Shown here in pieces: positions 54,662-57,974 of a stretch of 64,000 nucleotides of DNA. The stretch covers positions 39,457,950-39,521,949 of the forward strand of contig OX463781.1 in the NCBI GenBank assembly GCA_949825025.1, in the 5' to 3' direction. Position 1 is the first letter of the stretch, and each line of letters opens with the position of its first letter. The translations under genes were made by a program, and so were the position numbers. The stretch is from Siphlonurus alternatus. Its lineage: Eukaryota > Arthropoda > Insecta > Ephemeroptera > Siphlonuridae. Under the pieces are notes generated by a model. That model saw only the letters and a program-made list of their open reading frames with translations. It was not told where the DNA came from and ran no database searches.

Positions 54662-54912
54662 ATTTAATCAAAGTTAACTCACATTAACAAGTCAAGTGTA
54701 TATTATAACATTTCCTGGATTTAATTAGAGTTAAAAGCATTTTACACTATAAACGTTGTTACTTGTTATTCTTGCTTGGCAGTAACGCTATAACTTCTAA
54801 CTTGATTACTACTATACCCTCATCCTATCTAAGCTTGACTGCGCAACATTCATCTATCATAACCGCGTTAATATCTATTTCAACTAAACTAGGGTGAAAA
54901 TTAAGTTAACTT
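54662..54912 (-). promoter_or_regulatory. Conserved non-coding element delta, copy B (inverted)
   Basis: Minus-strand match to 6258-6530, with the blocks in the same order and the AATGCTTTTAACTCTAATTA core identical. Confidence 0.7.
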
Positions 54913-55101
54913 CAATCTTTTAATCATACTTTAACACTTAAAAAAAATAATAAAATTTTAATAAAAAAATTATTTTTTTATATATAATAATAATTTTATG
55001 TGTTATAATAAAATGAATTTTTATATTTAATAAATTATATAAAATATGGAAATAAATATATAAAAAATGTTAGTATGATTTGTTAGAAGAGGGTGTTTTT
55101 A

Positions 55102-55210
55102 AGTCAAACTTTTTAATGAATAAAAATTGACGTGGCATTTTAGTAATAATTTTTATTCGTCAGCAGATGTGCTTGTCAGGCTAAGCGGTAGCAAATAGCA
55201 ATTTAAAAGT
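55102..55210 (-). promoter_or_regulatory. Conserved non-coding element gamma, copy B (inverted)
   Basis: Minus-strand match to the 5964-6050 core: GCCTGACAAGCACATCTGC, CGAATAAAAATTAT and CGTCAATTTTTATTCATTAA are identical apart from a few bases between them. Confidence 0.7.
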
Positions 55211-55542
55211 TAAACGTCCCTCCATGGCAGTAAAATCTCACGTCCTAATGATTGTAATAATAATAATAAAAAAAAAGATCCAATAAATATTATATTTATT
55301 AAATTTATTGCATCTTCAAAACTATAATCTATTATTTTTGTATTTCTATTAATATTTCGTTGATTTTTAAAACAACATGCTGCATGAATAAAATAACTAT
55401 TTGATGAGTTTTTAATAAAGATAAATAACTCGCTTAACTGAATCATCAACAAAAATAAACAAGAACAATATCAATACAGTAAAATAAATCAAAAAATAAT
55501 AAAAAAAAATGTTGGATAGGCTGTCAATAATATTGTGCTAGC

Positions 55543-55680
55543 CATATTGCGGTCTATACTTTGGCCAATAGTTTGGCAATAACCACAATGTGGTGCTCTA
55601 TATATATAGGGGAGTTGGATGCTGTGGTCATTTGATGTAATAAAGATTGGTTAACTCTCGCCTACATCAAAGTATCGTTA
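55543..55680 (-). promoter_or_regulatory. Conserved non-coding element beta, copy B (inverted)
   Basis: Minus-strand match to 4695-4836, including the GCCAAACTATTGGCCAAAG core and flanking TAACGA-ACTTT and ATCAAATGACCAC strings. Confidence 0.65.
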
Positions 55681-55999
55681 CCGTAGTTGCATGTCATGGA
55701 AGATTGTTACCACAATTATCTTAAAGTAAATTAACTGATGCTAATTACACGACTAATGTCTTCAAATGTTCTCCATGATGATAGTGACGTGTTATTAAGT
55801 GAAATGTATTACCATGGTAATAAATATTTCTGATATAACCATGCACTAGCATGATTATATTTCTCTCAAAAGTATATAAGGAATGTTTTGGAAATTTGAA
55901 TGTTTGCATGCATGCAAGTTTCAAATTTTAAAGTTCCAAATCTCTTATGAATAATTACATTTTTTCATATTATGTTTTAAATATTTTAAATACAATGGA

Positions 56000-56495
56000 C
56001 AATCGGCATTATTTTTTTAATAAATGAATATGAATGATACCAAATTATGCTACTCTGATTTTTTTTTTTTTTTTTTTTTTTTTTTTTTAGATTTTTTGTA
56101 AGTCCTGGAACTTCTTTTAAATAATTATTGAAAGTTCTGTAAGTTTTGTTGGCCCCTCTAGATCCTTAATAAAAAAAAATAGGGACTACGTCTATTGACG
56201 CTTCCAGGGGGTATGGCCGCACTTTCAATAGATATATTTCAAAATAGTTCCGGGACTATATATATATATATATATATATATATATATATATATATATATA
56301 TATATATATATATATATATATATATATAATATATATATATATATATATATATATATATATATATATATATATATATATATATATATATATATATATATAT
56401 ATATGTATGGAAAATAAAAATAGAGTAATATAATTTGATACTCTCTATTCATTTTTGCAATAAAAAATTTTCGTTCAGGTTGTCAATGAAAAGTG
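56000..56495. mobile_element. Family-6 hairpin interrupted by T-run and (TA)n
   Basis: AATTATGCTACTCTG, TATTGACGCTTCCAGGGGG and TGGAAAATAAAAATAGAGTA match 37190-37530. A (T)n run is at 56060-56089 and (TA)n at 56257-56404, where the right arm should be. Confidence 0.6.
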
Positions 56496-56499
56496 ATTG

Positions 56500-57880
56500 T
56501 AAAAAATAAAAATAAAATAAAAAAAAAAGAAGAAGTTTTTGGTCTTCAGCTGTGGAAATTCATTCACAATTAAATATTACCTCAAATTTAATAGATTTTA
56601 TACTATTTTCATGTAAATTTTATGTTTTTATAGAGTTTATTAAAAAAAGTATTTTACAATATGTTTGATATTAATTGTTTTTATTTACTTTTCGCCTCTT
56701 TACTGAACCCATTTTTCAGATTTATAAATAGTACTCGTTACTTTTACTGCATTTTTATACTTTTAAGTTAATAAACTATTTTTATTTTTTTATACTAAAA
56801 ACATTACATCTTTATATATAAAAATGTCGAATTGAAAGAACTATCAGATGATTTCTATTGAGTTAAAACATTCCGAGGAGCACTTCTGGACCATATAATA
56901 ACCTCCGTGGATATTACTCCCAGAGTGATCGCCTTTGTGATAAAATTTGACATTAAACTCTTCGTTCACTGAATCAAAGGAAATAAAAGAGAAAAAAAGT
57001 TTTCAAAAAGTTGTTTTAAGTTAATCGAGTTACATTTCATAGCTGGCTATATTTTATCTAACTTTTTATCGTGTCAAATGTTTGCATTAAGATCGTTCAT
57101 CACGTTGCCTTTTTTTTTCATAAATGCTCCCTCATTTTATAAAAAAAAAGGATAATGCTCACTGTGTATGTAAAAAGAAAACTACAATATATACCAATTT
57201 GTATGAATTTAAAAACTAAAATATTAAGATAAAGGGGGGAAAGGTTTTTCATAATATTTTCAATTATTATTTATAGTATTATTGCTAATAAAAGTATAAT
57301 AATTTGGCACATTCCCAAAGTTGTTAACAGTTTTTATATAAGGGATACTAGTTATAAAAGTTATCCAATTACGAGAATTTCAAATTACATATTTATATAT
57401 TTTTGTATCGTTCGAGAATTGAAGCTTTCAGCAGTACATAATTCTTAATTGAAAAAAATTTCATAAATATTTTATATAATATATAAAAGAAAAATATCAA
57501 TTTAGTTTTGATAAAATGAATTATAAATTATTTGAAACTATATTATTTCAAATAATAAATTTAATTTTTTTAATATATTTTCAAGTTTTATACGTAAATG
57601 TCAGTAATATTTTAAATATATATATAACTTTAATTTTATTGTTTTTCTTTTTCCCTTCTCTATTATTTATTTTTCTTTTGAGACATTATTTATCATTATA
57701 TATATATAGAATAAAGTTACTACAAATCAATATAAACAGTAGATGATAAAAAATTATAACTTAAAAAAGTCGGTTTGTTGTTTTAGATTATATTTCTGAT
57801 ATAAAAATAAACCAAAGTTTCGTTTATATATTTTTTATTCTGTTTTTTTTTTTTTTTTTTTCTCGCTATAATGGTTTCAT
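56500..57880. other. AT-rich intergenic DNA
   Basis: No gene signal; T-run near 57842-57862. Confidence 0.5.
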
Positions 57881-57888
57881 ATCAGCTT

Positions 57889-57974
57889 GGACATTGAGGG
57901 CGTGCTGCTAAAGAATAACAATCCTGAAGACGCCCCGGGGAGCTTTGAGGATTTGACCCCGCGACCAGCTGCTC
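57889..57974 (-). promoter_or_regulatory. Conserved non-coding element alpha, copy B (inverted)
   Basis: Read on the minus strand it matches element alpha at 1914-2001. The neighbouring GC-rich DNA to about 58060 is open on + but looks like low-complexity Pro/His coding by chance. Confidence 0.5.

Follow-up and report, generated by a model that had tools for sequence, protein, structure and literature searches.

Two NKX6 genes begin on the same strand within a 64-kb stretch of DNA (hereafter the window), about 50 kb apart, and each is preceded by a cluster of four non-coding elements, called here alpha, beta, gamma and delta. The elements match between the two clusters in inverted orientation and in mirrored order. 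We regard as likely a history in which NKX6 was duplicated in tandem along with an upstream cis-regulatory cluster, one of the clusters was inverted, the elements were kept by selection, and the promoter and exon 1 were converted.

Results

Two NKX6 genes on one strand

The window is about 70% A+T and contains an NKX6/HGTX gene (gene A) that is complete, with four exons on the forward strand encoding 264 amino acids; its splice sites were positioned by eye (Table 1). Part of its homeodomain is 94% identical over 49 residues to a vertebrate probe, and the presence of an NKX6-type homeodomain and of upstream motifs fits the NKX6/HGTX class. Among the best 120 of 1144 protein matches, the top two were NKX6-named proteins from two baetid mayflies, Neocloeon triangulifer (70% identity, covering 79% of the query) and Cloeon dipterum (65% identity, covering 83%). 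The source of the window is therefore an arthropod and probably another mayfly. The second gene (gene B) is present as exon 1 alone, since the window stops 623 bases into its first intron. An in-frame upstream ATG (12696-12794) would add 33 N-terminal residues to gene A if used, and the upstream frame of gene B has no ATG back to the stop at 63015. A limited literature search listed no description of this locus or of a mayfly NKX6 tandem pair among its titles and abstract beginnings.

Table 1. Features of the NKX6 locus, in window coordinates. The element copies upstream of gene A form cluster A and those upstream of gene B form cluster B.
Feature	Coordinates	Strand	Remark
Delta, cluster A, GC-rich patch	1900..2012	-	strict scoring marginal, gap-tolerant scoring strong
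Gamma, cluster A	3331..3536	-	blastn E 4e-14 to 56940-57121
Beta, cluster A, with 45-bp identical run	4733..4836	-	blastn E 1e-26
Partial degenerate beta repeat adjoining beta, cluster A only	4851..4884	-	nhmmer E 0.022, weak
Alpha, cluster A, two conserved parts (~5965-6057, ~6256-6550)	5965..6550	-	blastn E 8e-36
Promoter-like block, gene A	12280..12497	+	215/218 identical to gene B
NKX6 gene A, coding exon 1	12795..13106	+	
NKX6 gene A, exon 2	14164..14305	+	
NKX6 gene A, exon 3, first part of homeodomain	26228..26406	+	
NKX6 gene A, exon 4, remaining homeodomain and C-terminus up to stop	32901..33062	+	
Alpha, cluster B, inverted relative to A	54640..55181	+	blastn, identity along element
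Beta, cluster B, inverted relative to A	55544..55649	+	blastn
Gamma, cluster B, inverted relative to A	56940..57121	+	blastn
Delta, cluster B, inverted relative to A	57880..57982	+	blastn, gap-tolerant alignment
Promoter-like block, gene B	62683..62900	+	215/218 identical to gene A
NKX6 gene B, coding exon 1	63066..63377	+	1/104 residues different from A

Four non-coding elements in mirrored order

Comparison of the window with itself by blastn paired the two copies of alpha at 66% identity, those of beta at 84% and those of gamma at 68%, and matched a core of delta (1939-1977 with 57942-57903) at 80% identity and an E value of 0.01. Aligned copy against copy, identity was 69% for alpha, 78% for beta, 71% for gamma and 60% for delta. 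The longest uninterrupted identical runs measured 45 bp in beta, 25 bp in alpha and 18 bp in gamma, and alpha holds further runs of 21, 19, 17 and 16 bp. It is best described as a pair of conserved parts, since the A/T-rich stretch between them hardly aligns. Delta is GC-rich and stands out from its A/T-rich surroundings.

We measured these similarities against chance in several ways. Sixty dinucleotide shuffles of cluster against cluster gave a best local score of 49. In inverted orientation alpha scored 159, beta 124 and gamma 79, which places them 110, 75 and 30 units above the best of the whole-cluster shuffles; in direct orientation the same pairs scored 37, 16 and 21. A control in which sequence was reversed and left uncomplemented returned a best blastn E value of 5e-7, and its two best matches fell in or at the edge of a TA repeat at about 56355-56422. 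The shuffles and this control rule out chance similarity for alpha, beta and gamma. Delta was marginal under strict scoring, with a score of 36 that 10 of 200 shuffles reached. Under gap-tolerant scoring its whole GC-rich patch, picked after the match had already been seen, scored 24, against a best of 16 in 2000 shuffles and a best of 12 in 176 comparisons with other GC-rich pieces. Above-chance retention of non-coding sequence by both paralogues, as asked of duplicated conserved non-coding elements (dCNEs), was found for alpha, beta and gamma, and for delta with gap-tolerant scoring only.

The initial annotation had proposed two NKX6 gene starts, an upstream cluster present twice with its elements recurring as reverse complements, and one inversion between the two copies. 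Both gene starts are there, A as a complete gene and B as its exon 1; alpha, beta and gamma stand far above the shuffles beside both of them; and all four elements give inverted matches in self-blastn, with their order mirrored between the clusters, as a relative inversion would have it. The long identical strings that had been described are borne out by the 45-bp run in beta. A distance of 5-6 kb from each exon 1 had also been given, and we measured 6.2 kb (A) and 5.1 kb (B) from the end of the cluster to the start codon, the elements lying 5-11 kb upstream. High copy number had been named as the observation that would speak for transposon parts; within the 64-kb window, the extent of this count, alpha, beta, gamma and delta have two full copies each and no third.

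Several short words occur within the conserved runs, among them ATCAAAG, which we take to be TCF-like, AACCACA, presumably Runt-like, and TAATTA. We attach no claim to such transcription-factor words because they occur 11 to 240 times in the window. Both alpha copies carry a conserved inverted repeat, GAATAAAAATT / AATTTTTATTC (5988-6028 and 55118-55158), which may represent two paired homeodomain sites.

Spacers and surroundings of the clusters

We compared five intervals from cluster to cluster, lying between the elements or immediately beyond them, with 100 shuffles as the null. One interval scored at the null mean, two came near the top of the shuffles (2 and 3 of the 100 reached them) and two exceeded all 100. 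The alignments behind the four higher-scoring intervals consisted of poly-T, A/T-rich or simple-repeat (TATAA-type) runs, and when simple repeats were masked the two null-exceeding intervals scored 28 and 31, against maxima of 34 and 39 in the unmasked shuffles. We traced the scores near or above the null to low-complexity stretches and rejected homology of the spacers. The proposal that conserved islands alternate with spacers that have turned over holds up, the similarity between spacers being that of low complexity alone.

The spacer between beta and gamma in cluster B is occupied, outside the elements, by a repeat that is also found near 37.2-37.5 kb. Another pair of sequences matches in direct orientation (5142-5259 with 52060-52174; 75% identity, blastn E 1e-15), with one arm inside cluster A and the other 2.5 kb outside cluster B, and two copies were seen in the window. 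This pair is probably a dispersed repeat; otherwise it would be at odds with a simple inversion. As for scars of the inversion, self-blastn of the window at E values up to 1e-3 returned no inverted pair hugging either cluster. Inverted pairs do flank cluster A, with arms at 12-55, 1224-1420 and 1672-1766, and their partner arms lie at 20-31 kb, beyond exon 1.

Repeats of other kinds are spread through the window. Long near-palindromic repeats, each matching itself in inverted orientation, lie at 14785-15189, 19668-20043, 48369-48774, 29438-29727 and 37188-37528; they are partly common to several sites and have, by eye, the look of MITE-like foldbacks. An array of the tetranucleotide AGAC, with about 190 copies, spans 8320-9078 and leaves several frames open on both strands. 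Upstream of cluster B, a direct repeat of about 360 bases (51566-51928 and 52961-53320) is 90.5% identical between its arms. An open frame of 288 residues on the minus strand (59028-59894) had no Pfam match at E values up to 1; by eye, it looks like the C-terminal region of a reverse transcriptase of the non-LTR kind.

Near-identical promoter and exon 1

The closest similarity between the two gene copies was absent from the initial annotation. The promoter-like blocks of genes A and B are 99% identical, as are their exon 1 coding blocks (12795-13112 and 63066-63383; 315 of 318 positions), and the two tracts are equally diverged (Fisher p 0.69). The identical coding block has functional borders, starting at the ATG and stopping just inside the splice donor. 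At the protein level 103 of 104 residues of exon 1 agree, leaving one amino-acid difference, and synonymous divergence is low (dS 0.024; 2 differences over 84.5 synonymous sites). Exon 1 encodes a poly-serine stretch in which only one base separates the two copies and which is without counterpart in two aligned baetid proteins, an alignment read by eye. The paralogues are 99% identical in protein sequence and each of two baetid mayflies stands at 69%.

The DNA around these tracts is of a different kind. Between the two blocks the 5'UTR measures 297 bases in A and 165 bases in B, and the two share an 11-base word. Their comparison scored 22, where 300 shuffles had a 95th percentile of 21 and a 99th of 24. 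For the 2 kb preceding the promoter block the score was 31, with the 95th percentile at 30 and the maximum of 60 shuffles at 33. The start of intron 1 scored 24 and was at background, the null having a median of 23. The interval between cluster and promoter was within the null (33, 95th percentile 35). The 5'UTR and the DNA upstream of the promoter possibly hold faint remnants of homology, far below 99%.

We rejected the idea that promoter and exon were copied recently as one segment, because the 5'UTR between the near-identical blocks, which would have been copied too, is dissimilar. What we observed is the pattern looked for in gene conversion, near-identical tracts with low dS inside otherwise dissimilar paralogous DNA. 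Since selection alone is not expected to freeze both synonymous sites and a lineage-specific poly-serine stretch, conversion is favoured, and we infer that the promoter and exon 1 may have been homogenised by it where homology survived. The contrast between 99% identity in these tracts and dissimilarity in the 5'UTR and flanks also means that their history differs from that of the cluster.

Discussion

We propose that an old tandem duplication, in a mayfly-like lineage, carried NKX6/HGTX together with its upstream regulatory cluster. Selection would have retained the elements in both copies while the spacers turned over, and a single inversion of one cluster relative to the other, spanning at least 3.3 kb, would have been tolerated, presumably because enhancers act in either orientation. 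The elements are putative enhancers (or silencers) working regardless of orientation, whose conserved words transcription factors would bind. Constraint on them is suggested by a comparison of two sequences only, and an enhancer function is what we would predict from that pattern. Expression of the two paralogues may then overlap, with the nerve cord as its probable site. Gene conversion would homogenise the promoter and exon 1, the cluster being held by selection only. A more pointed version of this history we put forward tentatively, giving it somewhat less than an even chance: that conversion keeps a tandem insect NKX6 pair 99% identical in promoter and coding exon, in tracts that end at functional borders, and that a flipped four-part enhancer cluster escaped this and is held by selection alone.

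Other readings of the clusters have to account for the same observations. The window is rich in repeats, with near-palindromic and simple repeats and a frame that looks by eye like reverse transcriptase, and insertions in opposite orientation are normal for mobile elements, so the clusters might be two opposite insertions of one large transposable or endogenous element whose inner parts decayed unevenly. We hold this to be very unlikely: a dead element would decay evenly and would not leave dissimilar spacers alternating with islands, one of which keeps 45 identical bp in a row, the window holds two full copies only, and each of them is followed by an NKX6 start at a distance of 5-6 kb. A collection of viral contigs gave no exact match to the core of beta, on which ground a virus-derived origin of beta was set aside; the test is a weak one, and records from close genomes may be omitted from the collection. 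Unlikely too, if less markedly so, is a reading in which the elements belong, as exons or structured parts, to a non-coding RNA or to some other gene that was duplicated with NKX6. Such an origin would suit delta as a GC-rich patch amid A/T-rich DNA and the 11-bp inverted repeat kept in both copies of alpha's conserved end. Folding covered that end alone, in both copies and on both strands, and one of the four folds (copy A, minus strand) had a z score of -2.02, with 5 of 200 shuffles as good, but the other three reached only -0.04 and -1.32 (copy B) and -1.56 (copy A). The whole window gave 0 Rfam matches at the gathering threshold, frames of at least 100 aa are absent from all the elements of cluster B (two such frames overlap delta and gamma, both in cluster A), and in one copy the elements face the other way with respect to the gene beside them. 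By eye we also considered delta as a shared coding exon, as its differences in a short stretch are mostly at third positions of one frame, and dropped the idea on account of a stop just upstream in copy A and the tiny sample.

For the promoter and exon 1, the alternative to gene conversion is extreme purifying selection on the DNA letters themselves, to which the functional borders of the coding block, the ATG and the splice donor, would be well suited. We find it doubtful: synonymous sites are almost identical, the poly-serine stretch included, coding and non-coding tracts are equally diverged, and, to judge from the enhancer-like elements, strong constraint of the ordinary kind leaves 60-78% identity at this locus. 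Chance similarity of A/T-rich DNA, finally, has the composition of the window on its side, and the strict score of delta taken alone, but is refuted for alpha, beta and gamma, whose margins over the shuffles come with a mirrored order; as an account of the clusters it is negligible.

If the more pointed version of this history is true, the locus would separate the sequence needs of enhancers from their needs in orientation and spacing, in one natural experiment. The flip offers a test, at the native locus, of whether a whole cluster works independently of its orientation, and comparison of copy A with copy B marks likely functional cores (the 45-bp, 25-bp and 18-bp runs of beta, alpha and gamma) without a second species. 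Duplicated non-coding clusters of invertebrates that can be recognised in a single genome are useful in this respect. A near-identical promoter and exon beside a diverged cluster also raises the question of whether conversion of coding sequence relaxes or preserves regulatory divergence after duplication. Embryonic ATAC-seq from six stages of Cloeon dipterum, described in PMC11491810, makes some of the reading checkable soon.

Comparison with known systems

Vertebrate dCNEs are non-coding islands retained beside more than one trans-dev paralogue, and in one account 796 of 811 elements kept their orientation and order, with a figure legend marking some elements in opposite orientation between species (PMC1896008). 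The elements reported here are alike in being islands retained beside paralogues of a developmental transcription-factor gene. They differ in that the vertebrate cases are old duplications recognised by multi-species alignment, whereas the NKX6 locus is a local, same-strand arthropod pair with two copies and a cluster flipped as a block.

The insect homeobox genes engrailed and invected are linked side by side. A 2006 paper by Peel, Telford and Akam reportedly names concerted evolution of the hexapod pair in its title, and that of Cheng et al. from 2014 is said to claim co-regulation by an array of regulatory sequences. Gene conversion in engrailed/invected of hexapods is cited in PMC3199776, and the pair is also cited in PMC10455198. 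The NKX6 genes, in which conversion is probable, resemble engrailed/invected as an insect homeobox pair. They belong to another homeobox family, the NKX6 promoter appears to be homogenised too, and the upstream cluster seems to have been duplicated rather than shared.

In Capitella teleta, gene conversion has left patchy tracts at the nucleotide level in Dlxa and Dlxb, homeobox paralogues that are linked (PMC3199776). There the genes stand tail-to-tail and conversion touches the homeobox and adjoining intron, whereas the NKX6 genes lie on the same strand and near identity is seen in exon 1 and the promoter; the homeobox exons of gene B lie beyond the window. Spiders carry NK6-A and NK6-B in two NK clusters derived from genome duplication and linked to Msx2 genes (PMC10726417). 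They share with our locus two NK6 copies in an arthropod genome, and the pair described here differs in lying 50 kb apart in tandem. Retention of dCNEs beside paralogues is already known in vertebrates, and conversion within linked homeobox pairs in insects and annelids; this arthropod locus appears to combine both, and its cluster is flipped as one block.
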